Shown in pieces: positions 3,466 through 56,084 of a stretch of 64,000 nucleotides of DNA (position 1 is the stretch's first letter; the number at the start of each line of letters is the position of its first letter). The notes under the pieces are model-generated. The model had not been told where the DNA came from. It searched no databases and saw only the letters and a list, made by a program, of their open reading frames with translations. The DNA is from Cladocopium goreaui (Eukaryota > Sar > Dinophyceae > Suessiales > Symbiodiniaceae): the NCBI GenBank assembly GCA_947184155.2, contig CAMXCT020002072.1, positions 1 through 64,000 on the forward strand. The letters are read 5' to 3'. A program made the position numbers and the translations under genes.

Positions 3466-3610
3466 CATATATATCATACATATATATATATATCATATAT
3501 ATATATACATAAATGAAAAAATAAATGAATATATATATATATATCAATTTACATATATATATATATACACACATATATATATACACATATATAGATTTAC
3601 ATATATTGAT
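3466..3610. repeat. TA-rich microsatellite at retroelement left flank
   Basis: A run of (TA)n and (CA/TA)n with short TTTACATATAT interruptions. It generates spurious Ile/Tyr-rich ORFs on both strands. The same kind of tract reappears immediately right of the 3' LTR. Confidence 0.85.
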
Positions 3611-3627
3611 CTTTGGCCAGCAGATCC
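3568..3627. repeat. left copy of the duplicated insertion flank
   Basis: The 34 bases 3594-3627, ending CCAGCAGATCC, recur at 22951-22984 directly right of the 3' LTR with one mismatch (CTTTGG versus CTATGG). TA-repeat sequence preceding them is also shared, so the duplication may extend to about 60 bp. That is far longer than the usual 5-bp copia target duplication. Confidence 0.7.
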
Positions 3628-3856
3628 TGCGAATAGAGTGTAGGCTACGGACCATTGTACACTACCACATAATTCATCCCTCAAGGATCCACAGCCAAGG
3701 GGTACATCAACTCGCCCCTTTGGCTCAAGACCACTGCAGGAACCGGAACAAAGAATTGCCATGCTGAAGCCGCCACCCGTGTGACGTCATCACTGAGAAC
3801 ACCCACTCCAAATTCAAGCTACAGTACATAATCGGGGAGATAACCTCCGGTTCACA
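3628..3856 (+). repeat. 5' LTR (229 bp)
   Basis: Starts TGCGAATAGAG and ends GGTTCACA, and matches 22696-22924 base for base as read. It contains TTTGGCTCAAG at 3719-3729, identical to the 3' end of the dinoflagellate spliced leader as I recall it. It also contains GGCTACGGA at 3643-3651, the complement of the leader's 5' TCCGTAGCC. Confidence 0.93.
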
Positions 3857-3872
3857 GGTTATCAGCCGTAGG
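3857..3872 (+). other. primer-binding-site-like sequence
   Basis: GGTTATCAG immediately follows the LTR's terminal CA. It resembles the TGGTATCAG initiator-Met tRNA primer site used by many copia elements, with one extra T. The primer tRNA itself is an inference. Confidence 0.45.
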
Positions 3873-3914
3873 ACTCCTACGGAGCCTACGAGCGGGTAGC
3901 CGCGGGCCTTACAG

Positions 3915-6900: not shown

Positions 6901-9900
6901 CCAAACGGCCTAAAGCGAAGGCGAAGAGTGAAGCTGCATCAGTACTTCCAACACCTTCTCCGAAATCTCATGCCGACAAGAACAACAAGAAAGGCAAAGG
7001 TGGGAAGGGAAGATCATCTTCACCCGTTGACAAGAAGAAGATTTTCTGTAACTACTTCTTCAATAAAGGAGGATGCAACAAAGGTGACAAATGTCTCTAC
7101 AGTCATTCTCAGAAGGTCTATGATGCCAAGATGAAAGGTAAGAAAGGCAGAAGCGGAAGTCGAGATTCATCAAGGGGGAAAAGTAGAGGAAGTTCATCTT
7201 CAGCTGGACCCAAAAAGAAGATATGTTGGAATTGGCAAAAGGGCACATGCACGTTCGGAAGCAAATGTAAATTCCTACATGCAGATCAATCGCCTTCAGC
7301 ATCTTCCGAGAGAACCAGCAAGAAGACACCAAAGAAGAAAGCAACTCCAATTACCATTGATTCCTTCTTTGATAGCGACAATGAAGATTCTATGGATTAT
7401 ACCTCACCGAGGATAGCCAGTGCAAAGAAGTCTTCTGATGATCGCAGGATCTCTTTTGAACTGGAACCTGAAGTGCACGAGATTGCCATTGAGAACTACC
7501 AGGAGGGACTACCCAAGCGTATGTATCGTGATCCCAACAAGCAGTATATCTTCTGGAAAGTCGATGATTTGACCGACGATCAGTCCAAATCCGACAACAC
7601 CCTCGGTTCAGTCCGAGCACGGGCCAAAGCTATCATCATGGACAGATGTGGACTCCATCGTTTTGTTGATGAAGTTAGAATCATCATTGGCCCCAAGTTC
7701 GACATGTTGATCAAGCTGGACAGTGATCATGAGGACTTGACTTTTATTGAAGAGCTTGTTGAGCACGAAGTTGGGAAACCCCTCACGAAGTCCAAGAACT
7801 TGATGTGCATTTCATTACCAGTACAAGCCAAAGATTGCAGATTCATCCTGGATTCTGGCAGCGGACACGATCTGATTTCTGCAAGGAAAGCCGAAAGGAT
7901 GAACTTGAAGCAACGAACTTGTGATCCTATCATGTTCCACACCGCCAACGGTTCAACTGCTACTCAAACTGAAGCGGAGATTGACCTGGGAACCTTTGAT
8001 GTGACCTCTCAAGCTTATGTACTGGACGACACTCCGTCCGTGATGTCTCTTGGGAAACGATGCATGGAAGAAGGATACTCCTTTGTATGGCCATCTGGTC
8101 AAATGCCTTTCATGATTACGAAGAATGGAGAACGCATCGATCTGACAATTCATGACAACATCCCTTACGTTGATCTTGGGACATACGAATGCACTCCTCA
8201 TGAATGTCATCATGCATCGAAGATCCATGACCTATTGACACATTCTCAAGTCGGGTTTAACGATTTCAACGATATTGATGATGTCGGTCAACCCTCACGA
8301 AGAGTACATCTCGATGGAGAAAGTGGTCTTGAGACATCGGTTGGGGATCACAATTGTTCCCGATATGTCAAGAAGCTCAAGGTGAAGAAGAAGAGAAGAG
8401 CAACGAACCGGCAGAAACATTCGGCAACTCCTGGAGAAGAAGAAGAAGAACCACCTGAGGGCGGCGAGTATGAACCTGGAACTCCGTTTGACGGGCCTCC
8501 TGGTGACGAGACTGACTTCGAAGATGATGGTCATGGTGCTCCTGAAGACGCCGCTGAAGGTGATGAAGATGACATTGAGATCGATGTTGTCGAAGGTGAA
8601 TCCAGGGTAGCCAAAAGAGGAACACTCAAGAGAGAAGCTAATAGCTTGAATCACAAATTGACCCACAGATACAAGAATCCATATTGCGACTCATGCATTC
8701 GAGCAAAGATGAAGCACTTCAAGACTCGTCGTGGGGCATACAAGAGGGAACTCAAGAAGTTTGGCGACCTCATTACCTTTGATGCGGTGGACACATCCAA
8801 AGTCCATGATGACGTGTTGGTCCTCGAGAAGGAAGTGCTGGTTGTCAGAGACTGTTTTACAGGAATCATTGGTGCTTATCCATCTGACAGAATGACCAAA
8901 GACGATGTAGTTAGAGCAGTGAAACAGTTCATCGGCGCCAAGAAGGTCAGACAGGCCTACTCTGATCATGCTCCTCAATTCATTGAAGCTATGAATGAGA
9001 TGAAGATTCCAATTGATCATTCATTGCCTGGGAGACCTCAAACCAATTCAATTGCCGAAAGGACGAACCAATTTATTCTCACAGCTACTTCTACATGTCT
9101 TTTGGAAGCTGGATTACCACCTTGTTTCTGGAGAACAGCAATCCTTTGTGTATGTCATCTACTCAACGTGGAACCCAACGATGATGAATTGAGCGCTTGG
9201 TGCAAACTCCATGGATCTGAATTTGCTGGCAAATTCATTCCCTATGGTGCTCGTGTGAACTACAAGCCTCCGAAAACCAGAGAAGCAGGACAACTTCATA
9301 AGTTCGGGCCTGATTCTATTCCTGGAGTGTTTGCAGGGTATCACATTGGTCCAGGGATGCATTGGTCAAGACAATACAAAGTATGGCCTCTGAGTGAATT
9401 CGTACATCAGAATCTTGGTGACGATGCTAGCAAACCTGAACACCGTCTTCTCAAACCTCATTTGACTGAAAAGGTCGAGATGGTCACTCCATTGACATTT
9501 CCATGCAAGCAAGAATATGAGAGGGTGAACACCACATTGGAAGGAATGAAAGAAAGAGAAATCCTCGATGGCGATCCCTCCAAAGTGCCTCATGGAGATG
9601 ACGAAGAACATGACCAAGATGAAGATGATGATGAGCTTGATGACGGAGACGACGGTGGACCTGGACCAAGTGGTGGAAAAGTTTCAAAGAAGCCTCTTGA
9701 TGACTCCGAGGATATCTTCGACAAAGACAAAGATCCAGAAGAGATGACTCTCCAGGAACTGATCGACGCCCAACCAGACCATTGGAAGAAGGGCAAAGCC
9801 GGAGATGGGAAGATATACCTCAATGACGATGGTGAGAAGGTCAAGTTGAACGTCAAGGGTTACCCATACAAGATAGGAGATGACGGTAGACGAATGTTCA

Positions 9901-12900
9901 GAACATCACTGCGTCCCAAAGGGACCTATTCTCCTGAAGAATGGCGCAAACTCTCTCAGTCTGACCGGAATACCATCCTCAAAGCGGAGAAGAAGAAGTT
10001 AGAGAAGAAAGAGGCTGATGATAAAGCCAAAAGATTGGTCGAAGAAAAGAAGAAGAAGGCAACGAAGAAGGAGAAGAAAGATTCAAAGAAAGACAAGGAC
10101 GAGCCAAAGTCCAAGGACGATGAAAGTGGTGATGAAAGTAAGAAGGATGACTCTCATTCAAAGTCAAAGAAATTCGATGCAGGTGTTGGTGAAGTTGTGA
10201 AGAACAAAGTCACCTTACCTATCACATGTACAAGTACGCATCTTGATCTGTACGACATAGTCGATGATGACGATGTACATGGAAGACGATACATTGATTG
10301 TCGAAAAGTGAAGAGGAATGCTGATGCTAGTCCATGTTCCGATGCTTCTACTGATGTCCCGGACGACGAGGAATATCTCACTGAATGGGATGAATGGTCG
10401 GAGGTCGAGAAAGGACGTGGCCCAAAAGCATCGTGGAGTGGTGAAGTTTGGAGCACATTGTCAGGTGAGATTTCAAGGTTCTCCATGGCTACGCCAGGAG
10501 AGTCGACAATGATCAAGAATGGCAAATGTGTTAACGTCAAGAACGTGAAGAACATAGCCACTGATGATGATGAATACATTCCATTCCCAACTATGCCGTG
10601 TACTTCTGCATCAAATCAAAGTCACCGAACCAAGATACCATCAGGAGGCCTTGGAAGCAAACTTTTCAACGCAATGGTTTCACGACCTGTGGGCAGAGCT
10701 GAGATTGAGTCCAACCCAAAGGCCAAAGAGGCAATGCTCAAGGAGTGGAAAGGCCTTCGTGATCAAGAGGTATTCGACTTTACAATGGTTCGTGAATACG
10801 ACGATGTTGTTGCAGAGGCCAAGAAGAATAAAAAGGAAGTACATATGGCCAGGGTCCATGGCATATGCGTGGAAAAGAATTACCAGCTGTCCGAAGACAA
10901 TCCTGGGCGGAAATTCAAGGGAAGAGGCGTTCTGCTAGGAAATCAGGTGAAGAATCAGCATTGGGAGGCAGCATTCTTCCAAGACTTGGGAAATTCCCCT
11001 GCTTCCTTCGAAGCCTCACGATGGGCAGATTTTTACGGATGTCTTCCTGGGCACTCCGTCAAGTTGGCAGATGCGATTCAGGCCTACATCCAGGCTAAGT
11101 TGAGGGGACCTTTGTGTTGGGTGGAGTTACCCACTGATGCATGGCCTCCGGAGATACAGTACTGGAAGTTCCGTCGCCCTGTCGTAAGACTCGACAAAGC
11201 CCTGTATGGACACCCCGATTCAGGCACGATGTGGGAACAACATTGTGACAAGAAAGTTCAAGAAATTGGTTTTAAGCCCATTGGTGAGGAATGGCCTTCT
11301 ATGTATTTTCATGATGAGCTCAAATTGCTGTTGGTAATCTATGTGGATGACCTTAAGCTTGCTGGGCCCTCCGAAAATCTGGCCAAAGGTTGGGAAATGC
11401 TGCGCACTGTTCTGCGCATTGAACCCGAAACCGACTTGGGACTTTACTTAGGATGTGTTTTATCCCAAGGTGAGACCCAATTTCATAATGGTAAGAAAGT
11501 CAAGACCATAACTTATAACATGGAAGGATTGTTAAAGTTATCGGTGGAAAAGTATCTTGACATCATTGGTAAGGACACAAAATTGAAAAAGGTATCAACT
11601 CCAAGCCTTCCAGAGGAAACGAAAAGCAGCCCGTATCGAGCTCCTTCCGATGGAAAACGCAAAGTTGAGTGTCCTTGGTGTGCACATTCCTTCGATCCAG
11701 ATATGCCTGCTCTCTCCGAGACTGGCAACTCATGTCCTGGCCAAGACAGTGAGACGCTGAGCCGAGGGAATCTAGCTCCGCATGCAGCTAGTGTGCTTAT
11801 GAAGCTGCTGTATGCAGCCCGCATTGCGCGGTTTGACCTGTTGAGATCCATCAATGCATTAGCACGTAATGTGACTAAATGGACAAAGGATGATGACGCC
11901 CGTCTTCATCACCTAATGTGTTATGTTAATTCCACATTGTCCCTCAAAATGATAGGATGGGTCGGAGACAAAATTGAAGATTTATCATTAGGACTATTTG
12001 CAGATGCGGATTTCGCTGGATGTGCCCAATCCTTGAGATCAACTTCAGGATCGCACTTACAAGTCCAAGGTAAGTTCACAAGATTCCCACTTGCTGGTGG
12101 AAGTAAGCGACAAGGGTGTGTTAGTCATTCTACCCCCGAAGCTGAAATTGTGGCTGCAGATACTGCACTTAGGACTCTAGGAATCCCCGCATTAAGTCTG
12201 TGGAAAGTCTTAGCCAAAGTTTTTCCTCAACTCCTGTTTCATGACGATAATCAAGGTATGATTGGTGTTGTCAGATCAGGACGGAATCCAACCATGCGTC
12301 ATTTGGAGCGCACACATGGTATTTCCATTGCCTCCATGCATGAACATTTCCAAAAGGATCATTTTGTATTGAGCTATGAAATTACAGCCAAAATGGCAGC
12401 CGATATCCATACTAAAGGGTTCAAGAATCCCATGGCATGGAAGAAAGCTTGTATGTTAATCAACTTGTTGGAACCTCAGGACTTGCAGAGCAAAGAAGTA
12501 TTGGACATGTTGCAGCCAAGCACCGATGTCGATATGACTACTCGCCAAGTTTTCCAATCCAAAACTGAGGACATCCCAAACTTCCCATACACGGAAACCC
12601 CTATTTTGCCAAAAGAAGTGTATAGGAAGGGATTGACTAGTAAAGAGAAGCTACAGTACTTGCCAGGTATGGATCCCATTTTTGTCGTCAAGCAACCGGT
12701 GTTTTATCGTCCTAAGCCACCCGGCTTAATTGTGCCGCCAGATGTATTGAGATCCACATGGGTTCTTCTCAATGGTGCCTGGACAAAGGTCGAACACCGT
12801 GCATCTCCACCAGAGCAGGCTATCAGATTTGATAAGTGGGTTGAACGAGCGTGTTTTCAGTATCATTCGCCCAACAAGCAGCCGTTGATCCCGGACACTG

Positions 12901-13211
12901 TTTCACAATCCGTTTCAACGACCTCAACCCACCGGGTGATGTCGTCAAAGCACGTGCATGCCCCGCCTGCCCACTCGAGCTCACTACGTGACTCGTGTGC
13001 GTCAACACCACATGACCGTGTACAGCATCTGACCGATTCACCAATGCTGATGTTCTCGGTTGATGCCTTGTTTTTAGATGCACAGACATCACCGTCTCAA
13101 CACCCGAAATCCATTCACCAGTGCCTTCAGCCAGCCACACGTGTGATCAATACGCTTATGCGCCTTGTTCATGGGGGGAGTGAGGGTGAAAGGATGGCAT
13201 TCGCACAGTGA
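3915..13211 (+). CDS. ORF1: copia-type Gag-Pol polyprotein (3098 aa)
   Basis: ATG at 3915 lies 58 nt after the 5' LTR. Domains in order: Ser/Pro-rich N terminus; a very long Glu/Gln-rich coiled coil (about 130-720); a capsid-like helical region (about 730-960); Lys-rich linker; two CCCH zinc fingers at about 1042-1065 and 1102-1125 (CNYFFNKGGCNKGDKCLYSH and CWNWQKGTCTFGSKCKFLH) in place of the usual CCHC knuckle. Then comes an aspartic protease with DSGSGHD at 1313; an HHCC pre-integrase finger (H1580, H1584, C1591, C1594); and an integrase with D1623, D1684 (SDHAPQF) and E1715 (NSIAERT), the D-E spacing being 30 residues rather than 35. An acidic/Lys-rich linker follows. RT has YVDD at 2476-2479, and copia RNase H has LFADADF around 2697 and STPEAE further on. 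The product should make virus-like particles, mature them, reverse-transcribe the RNA and integrate the cDNA. The last 50 nt overlap ORF2 in a different frame. Confidence 0.95.
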   Translation: MTEQDSSDNAFSFSGHAVVPAAGTQSNSSQSIDTGGSDASELRTSLPRRPLVAPRGRQISTMQAIEDRDSTPGKRRSSARQLSPPMTPRTKAKTTSSNPPSPIQDATPSGTGSYQQVNAPSSGSDIFTAYQSELAEYKTSLEKATEEESVLQARLAETTAYAYQQFNFLENTTHQEMTSMTEQLQMLNFELQAAQQEDEGATYRIEELERYQTMSNEAASHLEFKYSRLRSEFDEQMGQANAIMVHVGADANAHINQLRLELENAEMNAKQEALAVGYANDQTCALQIEMLEVANQNQTMKHTMAMNVRRLETELDAADMKRDEIMKEFRSNIRSEHDRYAECEHHLALEESQLRLQVIHNENLQSRLAISENRVSEESLAESGGMRDMRIMGLRSELHMKQSLLDRMQQQLTESKNQYHELSCQQARRSSPSRSPHGGPLYEMYMQAVRERDRLKESKAEVDKLYLQNRTELIDTENLLKTFQQNFDETGKKYQDALNKIDHMSSNPNVTSNLFDSLHNEINDRDTAIARLHTELEAQKDSLERAHRDAGKSIKMLNDRRLVIKGATDYSIPESHLTEMHQLANERFAEVEEMSSTIAALKLENQAHSSSSMNRPTTLHGYPSNAMPRNECEEKCAKLKAELDEMKQERNAEVRNLQDELKKMEDRKDYYKNNFSQAEDRANDEEQEYRAEAEAFEKLRNEYNTNVKELENLERDRSKSSVSLREAEKISLQPWPKTTELSSWKGSVVHEVCVASGDRNYEDWKAWLAPCLADQPDLEALAKAPDVRFQSIDAKLSNALRKVIDNAGDKSMQVKYDMSMKNQLYGRSGDFIKGRELFAMILISFKSPDHTEVLYNAHHLYMFDYYGDDQLEAFYNKWLDIVYNMKHDDLPSNNSLRDTLFRKIEHSKLMAFDINRYKTFDEGHHEKTYAYLTGMIKGYIARGKQERLLKDRERAVKLSLSSTKTTPALEDADKPAAPIKTKKENEAAASSTGDPPKRPKAKAKSEAASVLPTPSPKSHADKNNKKGKGGKGRSSSPVDKKKIFCNYFFNKGGCNKGDKCLYSHSQKVYDAKMKGKKGRSGSRDSSRGKSRGSSSSAGPKKKICWNWQKGTCTFGSKCKFLHADQSPSASSERTSKKTPKKKATPITIDSFFDSDNEDSMDYTSPRIASAKKSSDDRRISFELEPEVHEIAIENYQEGLPKRMYRDPNKQYIFWKVDDLTDDQSKSDNTLGSVRARAKAIIMDRCGLHRFVDEVRIIIGPKFDMLIKLDSDHEDLTFIEELVEHEVGKPLTKSKNLMCISLPVQAKDCRFILDSGSGHDLISARKAERMNLKQRTCDPIMFHTANGSTATQTEAEIDLGTFDVTSQAYVLDDTPSVMSLGKRCMEEGYSFVWPSGQMPFMITKNGERIDLTIHDNIPYVDLGTYECTPHECHHASKIHDLLTHSQVGFNDFNDIDDVGQPSRRVHLDGESGLETSVGDHNCSRYVKKLKVKKKRRATNRQKHSATPGEEEEEPPEGGEYEPGTPFDGPPGDETDFEDDGHGAPEDAAEGDEDDIEIDVVEGESRVAKRGTLKREANSLNHKLTHRYKNPYCDSCIRAKMKHFKTRRGAYKRELKKFGDLITFDAVDTSKVHDDVLVLEKEVLVVRDCFTGIIGAYPSDRMTKDDVVRAVKQFIGAKKVRQAYSDHAPQFIEAMNEMKIPIDHSLPGRPQTNSIAERTNQFILTATSTCLLEAGLPPCFWRTAILCVCHLLNVEPNDDELSAWCKLHGSEFAGKFIPYGARVNYKPPKTREAGQLHKFGPDSIPGVFAGYHIGPGMHWSRQYKVWPLSEFVHQNLGDDASKPEHRLLKPHLTEKVEMVTPLTFPCKQEYERVNTTLEGMKEREILDGDPSKVPHGDDEEHDQDEDDDELDDGDDGGPGPSGGKVSKKPLDDSEDIFDKDKDPEEMTLQELIDAQPDHWKKGKAGDGKIYLNDDGEKVKLNVKGYPYKIGDDGRRMFRTSLRPKGTYSPEEWRKLSQSDRNTILKAEKKKLEKKEADDKAKRLVEEKKKKATKKEKKDSKKDKDEPKSKDDESGDESKKDDSHSKSKKFDAGVGEVVKNKVTLPITCTSTHLDLYDIVDDDDVHGRRYIDCRKVKRNADASPCSDASTDVPDDEEYLTEWDEWSEVEKGRGPKASWSGEVWSTLSGEISRFSMATPGESTMIKNGKCVNVKNVKNIATDDDEYIPFPTMPCTSASNQSHRTKIPSGGLGSKLFNAMVSRPVGRAEIESNPKAKEAMLKEWKGLRDQEVFDFTMVREYDDVVAEAKKNKKEVHMARVHGICVEKNYQLSEDNPGRKFKGRGVLLGNQVKNQHWEAAFFQDLGNSPASFEASRWADFYGCLPGHSVKLADAIQAYIQAKLRGPLCWVELPTDAWPPEIQYWKFRRPVVRLDKALYGHPDSGTMWEQHCDKKVQEIGFKPIGEEWPSMYFHDELKLLLVIYVDDLKLAGPSENLAKGWEMLRTVLRIEPETDLGLYLGCVLSQGETQFHNGKKVKTITYNMEGLLKLSVEKYLDIIGKDTKLKKVSTPSLPEETKSSPYRAPSDGKRKVECPWCAHSFDPDMPALSETGNSCPGQDSETLSRGNLAPHAASVLMKLLYAARIARFDLLRSINALARNVTKWTKDDDARLHHLMCYVNSTLSLKMIGWVGDKIEDLSLGLFADADFAGCAQSLRSTSGSHLQVQGKFTRFPLAGGSKRQGCVSHSTPEAEIVAADTALRTLGIPALSLWKVLAKVFPQLLFHDDNQGMIGVVRSGRNPTMRHLERTHGISIASMHEHFQKDHFVLSYEITAKMAADIHTKGFKNPMAWKKACMLINLLEPQDLQSKEVLDMLQPSTDVDMTTRQVFQSKTEDIPNFPYTETPILPKEVYRKGLTSKEKLQYLPGMDPIFVVKQPVFYRPKPPGLIVPPDVLRSTWVLLNGAWTKVEHRASPPEQAIRFDKWVERACFQYHSPNKQPLIPDTVSQSVSTTSTHRVMSSKHVHAPPAHSSSLRDSCASTPHDRVQHLTDSPMLMFSVDALFLDAQTSPSQHPKSIHQCLQPATRVINTLMRLVHGGSEGERMAFAQ

Positions 13212-16200
13212 AAAGGGGCACCCACAGTCCACTTCAACACCTGGCCTATGTCATACGCATCCGGAATTGGACATCAATGATAACATTCCGTTTGTAAAAT
13301 CCACCCGAAAATCCCAAGTGTTAGGTAAGAAAAATGAAGATCATTGGCAGTGGGATGGGAAAGAGACATTGATCCGAATTCACAAAACGCCAAGAAGGCA
13401 AAACTTTGTACCACAGGATTGCGAAGACTGTCCTTGTGACCCTAGGATCATATGTGATGAGAGGGAAACTGAACAAAAGTTCAAAACTAATACTCGAGTG
13501 ATCAAAGACATATGGAGATTCAAGGGCGACAATCATGAATCAACAAACAAGTTGAATGAATTTTGGACTGGAAAATCGACATTCAAGGTGCTCGCCAATG
13601 CTGAAGTGATCGATGGAGGTAAGAACTGTAAAGTGAGTCAGGGAGTAATCACGCTGTGCACCAATTGCAATGACGTGAAAACTATTCCCATCACTGATGT
13701 TTTTGTCCCCTATCAATATCACATTGAAGTAGGCAAACATGAGGTTGACCATCCCAAAGTGTCGGTAACCCTTTGGAGAGAAAAGAAAAACAGAACTTTG
13801 GAATTTCAATTTTCCAAATCACCTTGTGACTTGATGACATCAAAATATGCGAAGTTTTCCCTTGCAATCAATTTGATCGAAGTTCCTCAAGCAGTCCCAT
13901 GCTTCGTCTTGTTATGTTCGGAAGAGAGAAACTGGTTTACGTTCTTGCAGAACAAAATGAAGGACGAAATGAAGTTTCATGTCGTGCCAATCACTGAAGA
14001 TGACGACATGCTCTCTCCGTACGGAATCAGTAAAGCAAGGCGATGCCTTCGGACCAAACTTGATTCAATGTTCTTTGCAGGTCCATGTACAGGAGGTTCA
14101 CCATGGAACCGAATCAACCGATGGGTGAGCGAAGCAACAACACAACTCATCGAAGCAAAGAAGCAGATCTTCTGGGCGATGTGGGAAGTGTTTGCATCAG
14201 TGCTAAGTGAACTTATCAATATGGGATCACCAGCCTTGCTTGAATTGCCTAGAGGTTGTGATTACTGGAAGGACCGTAGAATGACTGACCTTGTAGAAGG
14301 AACCGTATCTCATGAGCACAAATTTGATGGATGCATGTATGGCTTGAAATCACAGTTCCAAGAGACTCCCAAACCAATCAAGAAACCTTGGAAGATTGTT
14401 ACATGGGGGGTGTCTTTTCCAAAGCTTCATAGAAGATGTGATCGCCGTCATGACCATGCTGAGTGTGCTGGCAGGGAAACTCGCATTACTCAGGTTTACA
14501 CTAAGTGGATAGCCAAGATAATCATGAATGGAATCAATGATCATGTAATCAGGAATAGTCCATTTGTGAACGTCAGAGTGATGAAACGTTGGAAGCCGCT
14601 TGCATGTGATGAACAATTGAAAGCTGAAATGTCTCGTGATTCCGAGAATATCCGCAGTCACCCAATCAAGTCGGTGGCAACATCCGTTTGTGCTACTCGA
14701 GGGCTCGACGCCATTGACATTTCGTTCGAGCGATCGCTACTGCACTGGTGCTTTTCGAGATTGACATCAACTTCGGTTCTATCTTCGTGGCACTTTTCAT
14801 TTTCGTGTCGACCGCTTTCTGAATTCGACTCCGATTGGTTGTTACGAGACCTACGGTTCGTACAACTATTTCCGCTGCTCGAACAGTTGTCACGAGACCT
14901 ACGGTCCGTGCGACTTTATTCTGTACAAAGCGGGATGGCCGATACACAGGATCTGAACTCAGTAGGGCAATTTGCCGGAAGCCGAATCACCGTTGCATTA
15001 CGGGTGCTGAAGGGATTGTCCGAAGGGTCCATTGCAGCCAAGACTCCATCACCATTCCGAGACACCCGAGGTTCGAATTTTCGACTGATCTCAGATGAGG
15101 ACACAGCCAACCAATGGATTAGGTTTGGTATGCCGCCTGCAGTTGTCTACTCAGCATACTTCGCGAACTCCAGACACACCAGTGAAGCCACTGCACAAGC
15201 CCTGGAGGTAGCCTACAAGTTGTTGCAAAGAGCGCAGGACATCGAGAAGGGGTGTTCAGGATGGGAGTTTTTGTCAAAAGGGTCGAGATTCGTGAAGGTC
15301 TTTGCTAGCAGATGCCCATATGATGATGCAACTGTGGGACGCTTCATGGACAAAGAGATCTATGACAGACTTGATGAGCTCTGGATCGTATTGTCCAAAG
15401 GACATTTTCCCGAACCTTTTGATGATCAAGCCACTGCTGCAGAAACTGAAGCGAAGATCCGAAGCATGAAACAGATTTATCGAGGAACACCATCATTCAA
15501 CACAGATCCGAGTGCCACATCATGGTTAGCTGTGACAAGGACCGCCGAGTACTTCAAAGTCATGGACGAGTTGACCAAGGTGAATCCGAAGTCTCCATCT
15601 GACAATGATAGCTATTTGACGGCAATGAAACACATGATTGAAATCCAGATGAGGCACCTAGGACATGCATTGAGGTATCACAACGAGCAGAACCCATCGG
15701 ATCAGATCATCTTGCAGGATGTGATGAAGGATGTGGTTGCTTTCGAAACCAACCAACCGAAAGGGAGGAGTGCAGCCCAGAACCATTTCTTGTGTTTGTT
15801 AGCCCTCGGCACGACCCTTGAAAGACACAAGACCAGCGCTCGAGGAGATGGAAACTTGCCGAGAATAGCAGAGCTGTCCGAGATTCAGTTCTCGATCCTC
15901 AAAGTCTTTGACATTCCTCAGGGAATCCTGATTGGGCATGGATACAACGTCTCGATCGCCGATGAAGGAGCCAGATATACTGAGAAGGAAAGACGTCATG
16001 CCTGCCACAGCTCTCTCAAAGATTTCACCACCGTGATGACCGAGACTCAAGCTGGTACAGCCGGAGGCATGCACAACTTTGACAACTGGGATGTTCCCTT
16101 GGTCTTCAATGACGGACGACGACCCTACGAAGTTGACTTCTGGAACAATGAGGAGCCTTCATGGGTGAATGATGACACATCAACTGGACCCAGCGCCCAG

Positions 16201-17070
16201 AGTACATCCGCTCCTACGGAGGGATCACAACCAAAGGCATCACAACAATCACAAAGTTCGAACATTCAACCGAAGAAGATGCCGAGATCATCGACTGGCG
16301 GAGGTTCATCTTCGTCGACCCATGCAGCTTTCCGATCTGGACCTGGAGCGACATCTCAAGGTCGTACCGAACCAGAAAGAGATGAAAATTGGATTCCAAC
16401 TGAAGATTGGATGAAGAGGAGGAAACCTTCAACTGTGGAAGTACGTCTCCATTCTGCCGAAGATTATGCTCGTGAAGAACAGAGAATTGCATTCTTGCGA
16501 TCCGGTAAGGATTTTGTGCTTTCAATCGTAGAGGGTCCTCACACTACTCACAAGTATGGAACCAATTTGATCTGGAAACAGTATTTGAGAAGATTGACAT
16601 TTCATGCTGCCCTGTCTTTCAACATGCTGACAGAAGGTCAACTTGATTCCCACATGATCAATGAGAATGACTACGAATGGCTGAAGCTCTACCACTACAT
16701 CATCACGACCACAAAATTTGTCAGGTGCAAAGGATATCCTGTGACGGAGGTCCTAGCTATGTTGACATTGGGCATTGAAGATACGGTGGAGGGCGAGATT
16801 CGAGTCAAGCTCAAGAGGTTAGGAAACAAGATTGGACAGTACATCATCGGGAAACCTTGGTTGGACAAATGGGATGAATTGGGAGGACAAGTGAGAAACA
16901 ACAAAGCTCTCATCTTGACGGACTTGACCTACCAAACGAGATCTAGCTCGAGAGTCATCAATGACATTGAGGCTGGGCTCAACAACATGGGTCTTTCATC
17001 CATCAAGGTGTACCAACTTCCCTATGAGTCTCTGGAGCAGCACTATTCAGAGGACAAAATCGCATGCTGA
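13171..17070 (+). CDS. ORF2: accessory retroelement protein with methyltransferase-like core
   Basis: The first in-frame ATG is 13171; the frame is closed upstream by TGA at 13144. It overlaps the end of ORF1 by 41 nt in the +1 frame, at a run of six G. In the first ~450 codons, GPCTGGSPWNRIN (Pro-Cys at about 305), LELPRGCDYW (about 359) and FDGCMYGL followed by KPIKKPWKIVTW occur in the order of C5-cytosine methyltransferase motifs IV (PC..S), VI (E.. ) and VIII/IX, but degenerate. Such cores are known to have been captured by dinoflagellate retrotransposons; the match here is my inference. A low-quality, Ser/Cys/Leu-rich stretch follows (14690-14930), then MADTQDLNSVGQF at 14935 begins a different, better-behaved protein. 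It has a helical N-terminal half, a Ser/Gly/Pro linker around 16190-16340, and a C-terminal domain I do not recognise. The ORF may encode two proteins. Confidence 0.85.
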   Translation: MGGVRVKGWHSHSEKGHPQSTSTPGLCHTHPELDINDNIPFVKSTRKSQVLGKKNEDHWQWDGKETLIRIHKTPRRQNFVPQDCEDCPCDPRIICDERETEQKFKTNTRVIKDIWRFKGDNHESTNKLNEFWTGKSTFKVLANAEVIDGGKNCKVSQGVITLCTNCNDVKTIPITDVFVPYQYHIEVGKHEVDHPKVSVTLWREKKNRTLEFQFSKSPCDLMTSKYAKFSLAINLIEVPQAVPCFVLLCSEERNWFTFLQNKMKDEMKFHVVPITEDDDMLSPYGISKARRCLRTKLDSMFFAGPCTGGSPWNRINRWVSEATTQLIEAKKQIFWAMWEVFASVLSELINMGSPALLELPRGCDYWKDRRMTDLVEGTVSHEHKFDGCMYGLKSQFQETPKPIKKPWKIVTWGVSFPKLHRRCDRRHDHAECAGRETRITQVYTKWIAKIIMNGINDHVIRNSPFVNVRVMKRWKPLACDEQLKAEMSRDSENIRSHPIKSVATSVCATRGLDAIDISFERSLLHWCFSRLTSTSVLSSWHFSFSCRPLSEFDSDWLLRDLRFVQLFPLLEQLSRDLRSVRLYSVQSGMADTQDLNSVGQFAGSRITVALRVLKGLSEGSIAAKTPSPFRDTRGSNFRLISDEDTANQWIRFGMPPAVVYSAYFANSRHTSEATAQALEVAYKLLQRAQDIEKGCSGWEFLSKGSRFVKVFASRCPYDDATVGRFMDKEIYDRLDELWIVLSKGHFPEPFDDQATAAETEAKIRSMKQIYRGTPSFNTDPSATSWLAVTRTAEYFKVMDELTKVNPKSPSDNDSYLTAMKHMIEIQMRHLGHALRYHNEQNPSDQIILQDVMKDVVAFETNQPKGRSAAQNHFLCLLALGTTLERHKTSARGDGNLPRIAELSEIQFSILKVFDIPQGILIGHGYNVSIADEGARYTEKERRHACHSSLKDFTTVMTETQAGTAGGMHNFDNWDVPLVFNDGRRPYEVDFWNNEEPSWVNDDTSTGPSAQSTSAPTEGSQPKASQQSQSSNIQPKKMPRSSTGGGSSSSTHAAFRSGPGATSQGRTEPERDENWIPTEDWMKRRKPSTVEVRLHSAEDYAREEQRIAFLRSGKDFVLSIVEGPHTTHKYGTNLIWKQYLRRLTFHAALSFNMLTEGQLDSHMINENDYEWLKLYHYIITTTKFVRCKGYPVTEVLAMLTLGIEDTVEGEIRVKLKRLGNKIGQYIIGKPWLDKWDELGGQVRNNKALILTDLTYQTRSSSRVINDIEAGLNNMGLSSIKVYQLPYESLEQHYSEDKIAC
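14690..14934 (+). other. spacer-like segment inside ORF2 with internal start
   Basis: The translation becomes rich in Ser, Cys, Leu and Arg, and the DNA is pyrimidine-rich. It holds two copies of ACGAGACCTACGGT(T/C)CGT (about 14845 and 14890). ATG at 14935 follows directly and opens a hydrophilic, domain-like sequence. This suggests an untranslated or regulatory spacer that happens to stay open, with ORF2 being two cistrons. Confidence 0.4.
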
Positions 17071-17072
17071 TG
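17064..17072 (+). promoter_or_regulatory. ORF2/ORF3 stop-start overlap (ATGCTGATG)
   Basis: ORF2 ends in TGA at 17068-17070. ORF3 can start at ATG 17064 or at in-frame ATG 17070-17072, giving the overlap TGATG. Such overlaps are used for termination-reinitiation in some eukaryotic RNA viruses and retroelements. Whether that happens here is an inference. Confidence 0.5.
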
Positions 17073-20000
17073 CCAAATGCAGACTTCATCATCAAATTGG
17101 CGGAGATCATCACAGAGATCAGCCAAGCAGCACATCTTCCAATTTTCGTCAACATTTTGAAAGATGCCCGGTTTCTTGGGTCCCAATCTTCCATTGTATC
17201 CATGGCCGAGGAGCTTGCAAGAATCTTGAAGGAAAAGGGCATTATTCACTCCACCAATGAAAGATTCTGGAAACAGATATATGCTTGTGGACGTGAGCCT
17301 TTCTATTGGAAAGAAGGTGAAGGCAAGGAAGTCATTTGGGCTATGCTTGAAAAGTCACTGATGCGACAGAAAGTCTTCTTACATTGTGCAATGGATCATG
17401 ATACAGTCCATGACCTGAATGAAGAGTGCGTCCATGTGAAGAACACCGGATTTGACATTGAAACTATCAAACGATGCACAGAACATCCACGAATTGTTCC
17501 CAGCATTCGTGCTGGAGAAATCACAGATGCTCAAGCTGGATCAGCAAACATCATTGGAGGAATGAAGCACATGAAAGATGCGGTCCAGAGGAGAGCATGG
17601 TCAGACATCCGACGAGGAGTATTTACCCCGGAGCCCCTGACAGATGTGGATGAGCATTGGGTCGAGGTAACCGAAGATTCCGAATTGATGTGCGATGTGT
17701 GCAAAGGATTTCATAAAAATGATTCGAGATTGAATACCTGCACTGAGAACCGCACAAGATGCCTGAATTGCGCAAGCAACTGGACGAGAGCGGCAATCTA
17801 CGGAACTGAAGACATTGGGATGGATGAATTTTCACAGGATGCAAGAGTAGCTGCAAGATTGCTCAACATCTACAATGAGTGCGTTGACTGGAGAGAAATG
17901 GAAGCCGAGAAGGACCTCCGTGGATTCCTGGTCACTGCGACACTTGCAATGCTTTCAGGATACAGGACAACAAGCGATGTGCTCAAACAGGTATCACATC
18001 GAGGTGCCATCCGAATGCCTGCATACATGGTGAAAGGGAAATGCAGACGAGACCTGTTACCCCAATTCAATGTACAACGTGAAACACGAACAGAGGATTG
18101 CGGAGGCGGAATGCACCGAATGCGATGGTATTACAGACTGCTTTGGGATGGTGGAAACGTCGCTTATCATGACTACATGAAGACCGTGCTGACCAAGGAG
18201 GAGATCGCATCAATGCTCAATCCAACCGCCACAGCTGAGTATGTCGGCGACATTTTCGAATTCTGGCTTGGAATGCTTGACCTGGGTATTCAATTCCCTA
18301 CTATGTTTGCTGGATGGGGGGCAAACCTTGACAGTTGCCTCGCAGGACTGGAAGAGTCGTTCTGGCTATTCAGCAGTTCATGTCGACCTACCGACACCAT
18401 CAACACAAAGCGGAACCGGTCCAGGAAAGCATACATCCCGCCGGTCGAGAACAACATGGTGACAACAATATTGAAAGAAGCGGGAATCTTCGACCTACTC
18501 ATGCAGAAGAAGATCACCAGAATGCCGGTGCTCCCGGAAGCCAACTACGATGACCACCCTGAAATGATTGAAGTCTCATCAAGCGATGAGGAGGAGGATG
18601 AAGTTGGCGAACCTGAAGACGAGACCACGACGCCTACGGCGCGGGGCCCTCGAGCAGAACAGACTTCAGGAGAAACCGATGCCGGAGCTGGTGACATCGA
18701 GATTGAGGAGGAGGAAGATGACATGGGGGGCCAACCTTCGGAGGCGAAGAAGCGCCGAACTGAGGTGCGGAACATCCGTGATCGATTTGAGAAGCTGATT
18801 GCAGACGCATCGAGTGTTCAGTATTGTTTCATTTGTGGTGGAATGCATGACATTGATGAATGTACCACACCAGATGACGAGAACATGAAGGACACCCTAT
18901 GGCGCATGAGGTTGATCATGGATCAGAAGTCCAAATCCCCATCATCATCCGAAAGATCCAAAGCTGCGACCAGAGGCAGAAAGGACAAGCTCCCAAAGAA
19001 CGTCATGCCGCGAGGAAAACGTTGGGGAAGAACCAGATTCACTGAGAAAGAAGAAGTGACCAAGTGCTTCTACAGTCAGTCAGCCTTTATGTACGACATT
19101 GGTGATCGTGAAGAAGGAGGACAATACTTAGTGAATGGTGTCGAAGTCAACCCAATTAGCCGAGGTGTGAAGAATCGTCATGAGCTTGATATGCTGATTG
19201 AGCGTGCGGCTGAGGAATCCCCGCCTGTTTTGCCGACCATTGAGGAGCTGAACGCTTGGAACCCCATTGATCATGATGAATATGTGAAATGGCTTACTGA
19301 AGAAAGAAAACAGTATGGAGACAACTGGAACTTCAAGTACATCCAACCATTCACACATGGCCACAACATTGGAACACTTCAACTTGCTCGCATCAATGGA
19401 GAAGAATATCTTGGATTAGGATGGAGTAAGGTGCATCGATATGGCGAGAACGAGTGGATGGGCAACAAGTGGGAAAATCCGCAATGGATAGTCGAATTGT
19501 CGAAAAGATTCAATGCAGCGCTACGCCACTCCGTGGGTTGCGTCAAGGACAATCGGAATCACCGTGGACTACCATGCGATGAAGTAGGTTGGGTCAATGT
19601 TGAGTCGATCTTGAAGTATGACGCCATTTGGAGAGACCAACATACATTGGCTGGAACAACCCATGTCAACTACCCGATACTTGTTGAGAGGTGGAACAAT
19701 TTCCAGAGAGTGATCTTCACTGAGTACAAGCAAACGAAAAGAATCCGAGCTCAAGTGCTAGGACTCAAGGTCACAAAAGGTGAGTTGGAATACGTCATGG
19801 ACAACTTCAATGATGGATTGACCTCGAGACTTGAACGACACACACTGAGGTTGGAGATCGGCACGGCAGATCGAGAGATTTGGCTTTGGCCGGTGGCAAT
19901 CCGTTCCCCTATGGCACATTCAAGAGTTCAAGGCGGTGTGCACATCGAAGACAAGAAGACTTCCTATCAGATGAACCCTGGAGTCGGATACACTCTTGGA

Positions 20001-22175
20001 GGAGGATTTCACTGCACCACTTTTGACAATATCGCTCAAATCTTCAGAGAAGGACTACGTCCCGGAGGAGGAGGCGACCGCATCAATACGTTCTTCGTGC
20101 CATTCGCACCGTGGGACGTGCGAAGTCAGACGGTGCTGAGATTCAGGAAGATTGATCAAACTGATCTTGTCTACATCTACATCACGTACGATTCCATCGC
20201 CAAGTTCTCCCCTCGATTATCAGCAGACGGACATATTTTGGTCCAAGAAACAATTCCATTCGAATCATTCGATGCAGTTTGGTATTACGATTGGAGGGAA
20301 AAGGACTACTACCGTCTCATGATCACAAAGGGAAGAGATCAACTTGTACTTTCTGTGCAAGGAGCGAGGAGGGTGGCCACCATTGAACGATTTGACAAAC
20401 TCATTGGGAACATTGTGCCTGATGAATCATCACCCGATCTGAACGAACTTCGAAAGCTTGTCGATATCAAGACCGGTCACTTCAGTCATAATCACAGATT
20501 GTTCCCTGGACATCCGGATTGGAATGATGCAATATCATTATTGGCAGTCACTCATCATCCCAGCAAGGAGGACCATCGACTATGCCCCGCATGTCTGATG
20601 GAGACCCCGGCACCACTATCGATTTGTGTGATGTGCAAAGGATTTTTGGTGAGTCATGGATGGAGGAAGCGAATCAAGATCACCGTGGCTACAGTACCAA
20701 GTGCCGAATCGCATCATCGAGAAGAAGATCTCAAAGACCATGTCAAGAAAGCATGGGAGGAGGTGAAGATCGATTTGACAGGTGAAGGTGACGATGACGA
20801 GATGATGCAAGATGATGATGATGTCACCATGAAGAGTCCAGAACAAGAACCTCAACCAGAAGAAGAAGATGATGACCAAGCCTCGAAGAAGGGCGACATC
20901 AATGATGAGAGAAGAGACTTCAGAGAACAAGATGAGGTCGACAAGTTTCTCAATCAAGAAGGAAAACCGACCGACGAGAATGACGATGAAGAAATAGCGG
21001 TCGATGAAATCAACATTGAGGAATATGAGGCTGGAGAAGCTCGTGATGCAGTGATTGAGTACCCCAAGTGGATGAAGAGGATTGAGTTTGGATCAAAGGT
21101 CCTACCAATCAAGCCTTGCACAATTGGAGATGCTCAGCCGGAGCTCATCAAAATCCTCCTGTTGCAGATTGGATTACATATCGTCAGGATCTACAGACTA
21201 TTCCAACGGAACTTCTGTGGAGACATCGAGACGGCATGGAAACACTTTCAACAGAACCAGAAATTCAGGATGGACCTGGACTCAAGAGTGCCTTATCTAG
21301 GCGAGGATGAAAATGGTGAACTCATTGAACCAACTGCACAACAGATGAAAGAGCTCTACAAAGAGATCGGCCGACCAAAACAAAAGGACGACATCGGAGA
21401 AGAGGGATTCGTCAATGCATACTATGGGGCAGTGGTACTCAAACGACTTCTCATATATACCCTTGAATGTGGCTACACGTATGATGACTTGCAAAATATC
21501 TTCTATGACGAGGAGATGGAGAAGCTGTCGAAACGTGACACAACAATGGATGAGATGAGAAAGACCACAGCGGCCCGCGAAGCCCTTGACCGACAAGACG
21601 TCATGGTCAGAAGAATTATCGCAGGTGCATACAGAGTGAATGCCGTTTATTTCTTCAGGAACGTCGACTTTCAAGACACAATCACACTGAACCCAGTTGA
21701 CATTGTGTGTGCTCTTCGTCCCGCACTTCGAAGAATATCACTTCTACACCTGATCCTTCAAAATGGCCGACAATTGCCACGACCTCTACTCCAAAAGCTG
21801 TATGATGCAATCGATGACTACAACCACATCAAGCAACGAGATGATCAACGACCAAGATGGGGCATCCACATGTCAGAAGCTCACATACTTGCAATTGCTG
21901 ATACCCCAACTCCTGCCGATCGTGAACGTGCTAACCCGGTCGCTGGCAAATCGAAAGCAGCCCCGAAGGCAGCGCCAGCATTAGGCAGAGTGTCAAAAGC
22001 GAAAGCATCATCGTCAGCAACATGGAGAACCGTCGAAGCCGCTCCTCCGCCAAAACAAGCTCCAGTAACCCCGCCACAGAAAGGTGGAAAAGACCAAGGA
22101 AAAGGTGGAAGATCTTATTCACACCGTGGTGGCGACTGGAATCAACAGGGATACTATGGATGGGGATATAGATGA
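17064..22175 (+). CDS. ORF3: zinc-finger protein with Tpt1/KptA-like RNA 2'-phosphotransferase domain (1703 aa)
   Basis: Starts at ATG 17064 inside the end of ORF2. A Cys4 zinc-binding motif begins at residue 210 (CDVC, later CLNC). An acidic stretch follows, then a zinc-knuckle variant at 588 (CFICGGMHDIDEC, Cx2Cx3Hx4C, one residue shorter than the Gag knuckle). Residues ~812-1060 carry the Tpt1/KptA signature set in order: LSKRFNAALRH (Arg821-His822), a GWVNVESIL strand-helix, IRSPMAHS (Arg947), GFHCTTFDNIAQIFREGL (His983), an Arg at 1006, then DGHILVQETIPFESF. In tRNA splicing Tpt1 uses the RH pair and two further Arg to move a 2'-phosphate to NAD+. A second Cys4 motif (CPAC...CVMC, about 1174), acidic linkers, a helical domain and an Arg/Gly/Tyr-rich tail (GGRSYSHRGGDW) follow. 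The whole looks RNA-binding. Host domain capture is the likely origin of the Tpt1 part. Confidence 0.88.
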   Translation: MLMPNADFIIKLAEIITEISQAAHLPIFVNILKDARFLGSQSSIVSMAEELARILKEKGIIHSTNERFWKQIYACGREPFYWKEGEGKEVIWAMLEKSLMRQKVFLHCAMDHDTVHDLNEECVHVKNTGFDIETIKRCTEHPRIVPSIRAGEITDAQAGSANIIGGMKHMKDAVQRRAWSDIRRGVFTPEPLTDVDEHWVEVTEDSELMCDVCKGFHKNDSRLNTCTENRTRCLNCASNWTRAAIYGTEDIGMDEFSQDARVAARLLNIYNECVDWREMEAEKDLRGFLVTATLAMLSGYRTTSDVLKQVSHRGAIRMPAYMVKGKCRRDLLPQFNVQRETRTEDCGGGMHRMRWYYRLLWDGGNVAYHDYMKTVLTKEEIASMLNPTATAEYVGDIFEFWLGMLDLGIQFPTMFAGWGANLDSCLAGLEESFWLFSSSCRPTDTINTKRNRSRKAYIPPVENNMVTTILKEAGIFDLLMQKKITRMPVLPEANYDDHPEMIEVSSSDEEEDEVGEPEDETTTPTARGPRAEQTSGETDAGAGDIEIEEEEDDMGGQPSEAKKRRTEVRNIRDRFEKLIADASSVQYCFICGGMHDIDECTTPDDENMKDTLWRMRLIMDQKSKSPSSSERSKAATRGRKDKLPKNVMPRGKRWGRTRFTEKEEVTKCFYSQSAFMYDIGDREEGGQYLVNGVEVNPISRGVKNRHELDMLIERAAEESPPVLPTIEELNAWNPIDHDEYVKWLTEERKQYGDNWNFKYIQPFTHGHNIGTLQLARINGEEYLGLGWSKVHRYGENEWMGNKWENPQWIVELSKRFNAALRHSVGCVKDNRNHRGLPCDEVGWVNVESILKYDAIWRDQHTLAGTTHVNYPILVERWNNFQRVIFTEYKQTKRIRAQVLGLKVTKGELEYVMDNFNDGLTSRLERHTLRLEIGTADREIWLWPVAIRSPMAHSRVQGGVHIEDKKTSYQMNPGVGYTLGGGFHCTTFDNIAQIFREGLRPGGGGDRINTFFVPFAPWDVRSQTVLRFRKIDQTDLVYIYITYDSIAKFSPRLSADGHILVQETIPFESFDAVWYYDWREKDYYRLMITKGRDQLVLSVQGARRVATIERFDKLIGNIVPDESSPDLNELRKLVDIKTGHFSHNHRLFPGHPDWNDAISLLAVTHHPSKEDHRLCPACLMETPAPLSICVMCKGFLVSHGWRKRIKITVATVPSAESHHREEDLKDHVKKAWEEVKIDLTGEGDDDEMMQDDDDVTMKSPEQEPQPEEEDDDQASKKGDINDERRDFREQDEVDKFLNQEGKPTDENDDEEIAVDEINIEEYEAGEARDAVIEYPKWMKRIEFGSKVLPIKPCTIGDAQPELIKILLLQIGLHIVRIYRLFQRNFCGDIETAWKHFQQNQKFRMDLDSRVPYLGEDENGELIEPTAQQMKELYKEIGRPKQKDDIGEEGFVNAYYGAVVLKRLLIYTLECGYTYDDLQNIFYDEEMEKLSKRDTTMDEMRKTTAAREALDRQDVMVRRIIAGAYRVNAVYFFRNVDFQDTITLNPVDIVCALRPALRRISLLHLILQNGRQLPRPLLQKLYDAIDDYNHIKQRDDQRPRWGIHMSEAHILAIADTPTPADRERANPVAGKSKAAPKAAPALGRVSKAKASSSATWRTVEAAPPPKQAPVTPPQKGGKDQGKGGRSYSHRGGDWNQQGYYGWGYR

Positions 22176-22688
22176 TAAATCGATATGACCTCTGCATAGG
22201 TCCTGAATGAACGTGGCGAAACGAGGATGCAATCATTGCTCGAGATTTACCTCAATTTCATTTCGAATGATTTCTGAGAGGACTCTGAGCCGGCTAATTT
22301 AGAACCACATTTTTTTTGAACATCATTGCGCGAGACGCTGAGTTTCTACAGCGGTCTACATCTCAACCGACGAAGGAACGGGAAGGTAAACTTCTAGTTC
22401 CATAGTCATCTTTGTGCTTCGATTTTTTTAATTCACATGCTTGAGTGAGATTCCATGCTGGCTACGCCACATCGGATGAACCTCAATGCCGGACACCGAC
22501 TACGTCGTGTCAGCATGCACGTGAACAGAACCTTTATCTTTTGGTAGAGATCGTAGCAAGCCGCCATGTAGATATGAAGTTCTGAACGGACTTTAGCTCT
22601 CCATAACTCAATAAATGAACAGCTGCAGATGTAGTGGATCAATTCAAGGGACACTCCTTTGCGCGTGGCCGACAAAGTTGGCCATGCG
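22176..22688 (+). other. retroelement 3' noncoding region
   Basis: Between the ORF3 stop and the 3' LTR. There is no ORF of note. Minus-strand ORFs here run into the LTR and are not credible. Confidence 0.6.
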
Positions 22689-22695
22689 TGGGGGG
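22689..22695 (+). other. polypurine-tract-like G run before 3' LTR
   Basis: TGGGGGG directly abuts the TG that starts the 3' LTR, the position expected for the plus-strand primer of reverse transcription. It is short for a polypurine tract. Confidence 0.5.
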
Positions 22696-22924
22696 TGCGA
22701 ATAGAGTGTAGGCTACGGACCATTGTACACTACCACATAATTCATCCCTCAAGGATCCACAGCCAAGGGGTACATCAACTCGCCCCTTTGGCTCAAGACC
22801 ACTGCAGGAACCGGAACAAAGAATTGCCATGCTGAAGCCGCCACCCGTGTGACGTCATCACTGAGAACACCCACTCCAAATTCAAGCTACAGTACATAAT
22901 CGGGGAGATAACCTCCGGTTCACA
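22696..22924 (+). repeat. 3' LTR (229 bp)
   Basis: Reads identical to 3628-3856, starts TG and ends CA, and carries the same spliced-leader-like TTTGGCTCAAG at 22787-22797. The sequence diverges from the left copy exactly after CACA. Confidence 0.93.
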
Positions 22925-22984
22925 TATATATATATATACATATATATATAGATTTACATATATTGATCTATGGCCAGCAGATCC
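22925..22984. repeat. right copy of the duplicated insertion flank
   Basis: Begins with TA repeats directly after the LTR. Bases 22951-22984 repeat 3594-3627 with one mismatch. Unique sequence resumes at 22985, so the pre-insertion site probably had one copy. Confidence 0.7.
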
Positions 22985-23190
22985 AGCCACGTTGGCCTTC
23001 TGCAGCTCTTGGCTGAGACTGTTGCAGGCTTCCCCTGCCACAACTGTGACTGATTTACAACTTGAGCAACCCCTGCAGCTTTGTCAGAGATGGTCCCAAC
23101 ATGAATGACAATCTCGGAGTCATTGTTCCACAAGCCTTGTAGAAGCTGTGTGTCTAGTTGCAAGTATCGAAGGTAATATCTTTCCTGGAA
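22985..23190 (-). CDS. exon-like segment, unidentified
   Basis: The minus strand reads as protein-like sequence containing EIVIHVGTISDKAAGVAQVV and, in another frame nearer the element, GEACNSLSQELQKANVAG. This suggests one or two short exons of a minus-strand gene into whose neighbourhood the retroelement inserted. I do not recognise the protein. The open frame continues to about 23550 but looks intronic there. Confidence 0.3.
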
Positions 23191-55760: not shown

Positions 55761-56048
55761 CTACCAGCTGGCTGTCTTGCGGGGATGCAAAAAGTCTTGC
55801 AGCTGTCAGCCTTCAAGACAAATGCCAAACACTTGTTTTCTTTTCAGCTTTTGTTCGCCGGACTGAAGTTACTCGTGAACTGGTGCTTACAGAAATAGAA
55901 TTGGAAACAGTAGACAGTATTAAAAACACCAAGTGCCCGACAGCCATGGGTCGTGTTACTGTAGCATGTTCACATGCAGGTGAAAAAGCAGCATGCATCC
56001 CGCAGCGATTTTGCTTTGGTTTCCAGTGCTACGATCAGCGGCACTGAT

Positions 56049-56068
56049 CGCACGGCCCGAAGCCTGCG
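56049..56068 (+). promoter_or_regulatory. stem-loop motif (copy 3)
   Basis: CGCACGGC-CCGAA-GCCTGCG. ATG 56085 of the P-loop gene begins 17 bases after the last base of the motif. Confidence 0.6.
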
Positions 56069-56084
56069 AACATTCAAAATTCCA

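Follow-up and report, generated by a model that had tools for sequence, protein, structure and literature searches.

The question raised by this locus is whether an RNA 2′-phosphotransferase of the Tpt1/KptA type, which an initial annotation had placed within a retroelement ORF, is encoded there, what kind of element carries it, and what such an enzyme might do for that element. The DNA analysed (the window) is a stretch of 64,000 nucleotides of a Cladocopium goreaui contig (C2072 in our numbering) from a 1.17-Gb genome.

A giant Copia-type element and its polyprotein

The ORF in question, ORF3, lies inside a giant Copia-type LTR retrotransposon bounded by identical LTRs (Table 1). ORF1 carries CCCH zinc fingers in addition to an aspartyl protease and a Copia-type reverse transcriptase (RT) that both exceed their Pfam cut-offs. 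An integrase before the RT and an RNase H after it were read by eye in ORF1; Pfam recognized neither at E ≤ 1, and both blocks were collinear in alignment with those of a second family, B, which is described below. ORF2 matched no Pfam family at E ≤ 1, and nothing in the window reached gathering score in Rfam.

Table 1. Features of the retrotransposon in the window and the basis on which each was assigned.
Feature	Position	Strand	Basis
Whole element, giant Copia-type LTR retrotransposon, 19,297 bp	3628..22924	+	Identical LTRs; RVT_2 and aspartyl protease over Pfam cut-offs
5′ LTR, 229 bp, TG...CA	3628..3856	+	Identical to 22696–22924
ORF1, gag-pol portion of polyprotein, 3098 aa	3915..13211	+	ORF list, Pfam
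Aspartyl protease, ORF1 residues 1306–1380	7830..8054	+	PF13650, 30.2 bits (cut-off 24.3)
Copia-type RT core, ORF1 residues 2421–2519	11175..11471	+	PF07727, 35.6 bits (cut-off 31.6)
ORF2, middle portion of polyprotein	13165..17070	+	Shares a frame with pol and Tpt1 in the sister copy
ORF3, C-terminal portion of polyprotein, bearing Tpt1	17064..22175	+	ORF list, Pfam
Predicted Tpt1/KptA-like domain, ORF3 residues ~808–1070	19485..20273	+	PF01885, hhalign, alignment with canonical Tpt1
Codons of Arg821 and His822, tetrad positions 1 and 2	19524..19529	+	Kept in 131/131 each
Codon of Arg947, tetrad position 3	19902..19904	+	Kept in 130/131
Codon of Arg1006, tetrad position 4	20079..20081	+	Kept in 129/131
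Polypurine-tract-like purine-rich stretch GTGGGGGG, directly 5′ of the 3′ LTR	22688..22695	+	Read by eye
3′ LTR, 229 bp, TG...CA	22696..22924	+	Identical to 3628–3856

We found that the three ORFs belong to one polyprotein. In a sister copy on contig C1202, the genome search revealed a single open frame of 6145 aa that spans loci L051 (15–9998) and L052 (2–8449), with RVT_2 in the former, PTS_2-RNA in the latter (24 bits, also under the Pfam cut-off) and the protease in the same frame, while ORF1, ORF2 and ORF3 of the window sum to 6102 aa. Because the C1202 copy is a single open frame, the three ORFs represent a frame-broken copy, with breaks at ~13.2 kb, where there are indels relative to the sister copy, and at ~17.05 kb, where the sister alignment ends. 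Thus, the description of ORF3 as a retroelement ORF was correct as to its place within a Copia element but not as to its independence: it starts at 17064 because the frame is broken, and it is no separate gene. The search for further members of the window's family (family A) gave 881 first-look candidates, of which 131 were scored, all with at least 95% identity, and open frames of more than 5000 aa were present in 12 of these 131; here and in the family B and PF01885 searches below, first-look candidates are not confirmed copies.

Several minor features were observed at the element boundaries. A short target-site duplication was absent, the five bases adjoining the LTRs being different (GATCC vs TATAT). 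In its place, a 58-bp repeat (91% identical; 3573–3630 and 22930–22987) flanks the element, adjoining the 5′ LTR but lying at some distance past the 3′ LTR. A near-perfect palindrome (CCGTAGGA C TCCTACGG, 3866–3882) follows shortly after the 5′ LTR, where the primer would presumably bind, and the C1202 copy has retained it. The 3′ LTR of that copy is just 68% identical to the window LTR over 192 bases, whereas most 1-kb internal intervals show 94–98% identity, and recombination or LTR exchange may explain this difference. Besides, 15 of 21 bases in each LTR (3709–3729 in the 5′ LTR), including TTTGGCTCAAG at 3719 and 22787, match what we take to be the dinoflagellate spliced leader, a similarity equalled by none of 2000 LTR shuffles. 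The same presumed leader had 172 exact matches in the genome and none in reverse, which marks the host as a dinoflagellate. This LTR stretch may be a relic of trans-splicing of element RNA. Two further long ORFs occur elsewhere in the window, at 50389–53730 (1113 aa, with only a sub-threshold Pfam match to PF13006, E 0.035) and at 55974–57989 (671 aa).

A Tpt1/KptA-like domain and its predicted active site

The five motifs on which the initial annotation was based occur in ORF3 in the order claimed: LSKRFNAALRH at residue 812, GWVNVESIL at 842, IRSPMAHS at 946, FHCTTFDNIAQIFREGL at 982 and DGHILVQETIPFESF at 1055. PF01885 was the sole Pfam family matched by ORF3 at E ≤ 1 (E 6.6e-5 and 23.5 bits with the whole ORF). 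The suggested profile search was borne out in part: with a 301-aa piece of ORF3 the match was significant (E 1.8e-5, 25.3 bits), but both bit scores fell just under the curated cut-off of 26. PF01885 was also matched at E ≤ 0.01 by 8 of 13 aligned family A members, and a precomputed PF01885 label was present on some relatives in this family.

Stronger evidence came from hhalign. When 22 family A rows were compared with 83 canonical Tpt1s (80 bacterial loci plus L001–L003 of this genome), the score was 63.5 (prob 95.8, E 7.3e-9), against a maximum of 22.5 among 100 column-shuffled versions, and with L001–L003 alone it was 50.5, against a null maximum of 23.55. The alignments paired LRH, GW, the IRA..GHS site, H.T and I...GL; because the IRA.QGHS pattern had helped to select the bacterial loci, the lack of variation among them at that Arg is to some extent a product of the selection. 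Together with the motif order and the catalytic tetrad, this result confirms the proposal of a Tpt1/KptA-like domain in ORF3. In a MAFFT alignment of all families, tetrad positions 1–3 were in register, and position 4 appeared as a gap with an adjacent Arg in six rows (L002, L003 and four of family C). The exceptions were three distant relatives (P0206, P0207 and P0210) that had another residue instead of Arg at column 4 and P0018, which had no Arg at column 1.

Other searches spoke against the match. An HMM built from canonical Tpt1s matched the window piece with an E of only 0.24, phmmer with the ORF3 piece returned nothing from PDB at E ≤ 10, NCBIfam gave nothing at E ≤ 1 for ORF3 and its domain piece, and no Tpt1 was found when the A2 family profile was run against PDB. 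Structure prediction was divided: an AF2 model made with canonical rows matches Tpt1, but AF2 without these rows failed (pLDDT 36.8). A chance resemblance with no homology to Tpt1 would account for the sub-threshold Pfam score and for the lack of a PDB sequence match; however, the hhalign scores exceed their null maxima, the motif order and tetrad fit Tpt1, and families B and C, from the same genome, have clear Tpt1 domains, which makes this explanation hardly credible and the least probable of those we considered. We regard it as nearly certain that ORF3 residues ~808–1070 form a Tpt1/KptA domain. The domain is a very divergent relative: it is under the Pfam cut-off, has no PDB sequence match and is reached by the canonical HMM with the above E value only. 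It resembles cellular Tpt1/KptA (PF01885) in motif order, Arg-His-Arg-Arg tetrad, H.T motif and profile match, but differs from it in being embedded in a retrotransposon polyprotein, in its sub-cut-off score, in reading MAHS and HCT instead of QGHS and HGT, and in having inserts in both lobes. For example, GWV and IRS are separated by ~95 residues in family A and by ~45 in a canonical Tpt1 (L002).

Conservation was assessed in 193 proteins with a BLASTP match (window ORF3 included), of which 131 covered the domain. The four residues proposed as catalytic (R821, H822, R947 and R1006) were retained in nearly all of these 131 sequences, as given in Table 1, and so were the NAD+-holding His and Thr of the H.T motif (H983 in 130, T985 in 131), whose middle residue is Cys rather than Gly. 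After thinning to 15 rows of less than 90% identity, 101 of 259 positions were invariant, including R821, H822, R947, H983 and T985; R1006 was replaced by C in one of these rows and by H in another. Relatives with 41–51% identity over part of the query included P0206, whose IRAPMGHS and FHGT are nearer to the canonical motifs.

Selection and other Tpt1-bearing families

The Tpt1 domain of family A is under purifying selection. Across 435 pairs of 30 family A copies, which were chosen as best protein matches and therefore have a somewhat lowered pN, pN/pS in the domain was 0.108, with the strongest constraint in the NAD-lobe windows (0.04–0.07). Variable sites in these copies numbered 22, 14 and 115 of 301 at the three codon positions, and the tetrad was identical in all 30. 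The flanks, which played no part in the ranking of copies, had pN/pS of 0.11–0.16 (the filter retained 258 to 351 of the 435 pairs). These values bear on the possibility that a host gene fragment was captured by chance and carried along without selection, or that the arrangement is an artefact of assembly or nesting. Such an origin would suit the broken frame of the window copy and the stop found within the domain in 3 of the 30 copies, but we consider it very improbable in view of a constraint similar to that of the flanks and of the scored copies that keep open frames of more than 5000 aa.

Searching the genome with PF01885 gave 1496 first-look candidates, and all 150 that were scored were over the cut-off. 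The three best matches (L001–L003) appear to be free-standing Tpt1 genes. Of these, L002 and L003 are similar to bacterial ones and grouped with bacterial KptA in the tree, and their contigs (C5523, 14.7 kb, and C1, 7.4 Mb, respectively) may be bacterial contaminants. Family B, represented by L054, combines in a single frame CCCH fingers, a Tpt1 domain over the cut-off (46 bits) and a weak, sub-cut-off RVT_2 match (16 bits). This is a second Copia family, with 632 first-look candidates and 142 scored, and over 269 residues its RT block shares 45% identity with that of the window. In all five loci of family B that were read, Gly stood in place of the tetrad His, and Arg 3 and Arg 4 were kept in four of the five.

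Family C comprises 22 loci at 92–101 bits among the 150 scored PF01885 matches and passed the PF01885 cut-off (92.8 bits). In the one element examined (L053, L055), RT and RNase H, then Tpt1, then a tyrosine recombinase were read by eye; the RT and RNase H of this element had no Pfam or PDB match, and the recombinase matches on L055 were weak (XerD E 0.01, XerC E 0.014, PDB integrase E 0.22). By this layout, family C is probably DIRS-like. Tetrad position 3 was Ala in all 17 loci read of the 22, and the median pN/pS was 0.142, taken from the 15 of 136 pairs with pS of 0.02–0.6. Between RNase H and Tpt1 (L053:5580–9998), a possible DNMT-like remnant was noticed by eye, for which Pfam reported no match; such a remnant would fit the SymbioDIRS elements described in the accessible part of PMC5890265. 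The more divergent Tpt1 domains of L147–L150 included two akin to family B (L147 and L148, 33–35%) and two with a complete tetrad by eye (L149 and L150).

These altered active sites raise the possibility that the domain is non-catalytic or largely structural and binds RNA, its winged-helix plus ART fold being retained because it anchors element RNA within the particle. The loss of one tetrad residue in the families B and C, together with the constraint that persists in family C, is in line with such a role. On the other hand, in family A the tetrad is complete and the H.T motif persists, and there is no obvious reason for the retention of R947 and R1006 unless the site works. We therefore consider a structural role quite unlikely, and prefer a catalytic one for family A.

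In the tree, 18 rows (families A, B and C and L001) were split from bacterial-type Tpt1s with support of 95/94. Families A and B were grouped at 74/47, with a long-branch warning, and a single clade of A, B and C was not rejected (p-AU 0.251). This topology appears compatible with either one or several captures of the domain by the three families. If family C is truly DIRS-like, the domain entered, or moved between, retroelements at least twice. A scan of viral contigs with A3 gave 29 pattern matches, none of which was confirmed.

Possible function and relation to known systems

It has been reported that Tpt1 moves an internal RNA 2′-phosphate to NAD+ in two steps, that its tetrad binds the 3′- and 2′-phosphates, and that its role where fungal-type RNA ligation is lacking has yet to be explained (accessible part of PMC6333775). 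Homologous to Tpt1, intact in its tetrad, constrained by selection, read in one frame with Pol and present in many copies, the family A domain is probably an active enzyme, and NAD+ use and 2′-phosphate transfer would be carried over from the known Tpt1 chemistry. Our best explanation, which we hold as a whole with moderate confidence, is that the window contains a copy of a giant Copia retrotransposon of dinoflagellates that was inserted recently and has a broken frame, that its Tpt1 domain has the full tetrad, and that the element thereby encodes an NAD+-dependent enzyme that would heal phosphate scars on the element RNA or its primer. The sister copy predicts a polyprotein of ~6100 residues in which Tpt1, with its complete Arg-His-Arg-Arg tetrad, follows Gag and Pol. 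The domain would be made within this polyprotein, probably excised by processing as Pol is, and packaged with the element RNA. Using NAD+, it could then strip 2′-phosphates from, or ADP-ribosylate phosphorylated ends of, the element RNA or an RNA primer, so that scars of breakage and ligation would no longer block reverse transcription, to the presumable benefit of the element. A search of the host for a fungal/plant-type RNA ligase (PF09511) was empty, but no control matched either, so it was uninformative.

Instead of removing 2′-phosphates, the domain might act mainly as an ADP-ribosyltransferase that caps 5′-phosphorylated ends of element RNA or cDNA with ADP-ribose and so protects them against degradation or detection by the host. 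The available portion of PMC6582358 reports in vitro ADP-ribosylation of 5′-phosphate RNA ends by human TRPT1 and Streptomyces KptA, for which both enzymes depend on the tetrad that family A keeps intact. No sequence feature favours capping over 2′-phosphate transfer, however, and any change of a TRPT1 tetrad residue to Ala abolishes 5′-end ADP-ribosylation (same portion), so families B and C would be without this activity. We consider such capping unlikely, though less so than a structural role. Returning to the healing of phosphate scars, families B and C have spread despite altered tetrads, and thus full catalysis may be unnecessary. In Runella Tpt1, R64A slowed step 2 by 210-fold and step 1 only threefold, and H17A made step 2 threefold slower (PMC6333775, in the part accessible). 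In families B and C the reaction may end with ADP-ribosylated RNA, or there may be no activity at all, and the accessible parts of PMC6333775 and PMC6582358 point in different directions on this matter. A broader reading, which we offer only tentatively and with some doubt, is that dinoflagellate retroelements recurrently require NAD+-dependent healing of RNA: unrelated types (Copia families A and B, DIRS-like family C) would each use Tpt1 to condition element RNA or primer for reverse transcription, and families that lost one residue would have been retuned, for example to leave the RNA ADP-ribosylated.

Capture of enzymes by retroelements is known, and Tpt1 was not found reported among the captured enzymes: searches of open-access literature (titles and the starts of abstracts, with best matches only for the broadest queries) returned no report of Tpt1 in retrotransposons. 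A close parallel is found in viruses, where a KptA domain is likewise embedded in a polyprotein; a Beihai picorna-like virus and a Botrylloides leachii nidovirus are named, and KptA is also reported in sawfly nucleopolyhedroviruses and Bodo saltans virus (PMC9503650, in part). Those cases are rare and viral, whereas the window family is an LTR retrotransposon with very many copies, and the accessible text of that source contains neither “retrotranspos” nor “retroelement”. KptA domains in viral polyproteins are infrequent, and the window family extends their known range to an element that is abundant. Similarly, Symbiodinium LINE and DIRS elements that carry DNMTs have a captured nucleic-acid enzyme with conserved catalytic residues under purifying selection, but the enzyme is a different one and Copia elements are without DNMT there; “Tpt1” and “phosphotransferase” do not occur in the accessible text (PMC5890265). 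Tpt1 would join DNMTs as an enzyme of dinoflagellate retroelements. Ogre, Burro and similar giant LTR retrotransposons are also very long and have additional domains, but the described giants bear other ones, and “phosphotransferase” and “Tpt1” are absent from the accessible text (PMC6431247). Selection for a full active site in very many retroelement copies suggests that 2′-phosphates or phosphate ends on retroelement RNA pose a problem worth a dedicated enzyme, and dinoflagellate retroelements offer a testable setting for the puzzle of Tpt1 function. Besides, transposons will inflate any tally of Tpt1-like genes in genomes of this kind, which calls for caution.
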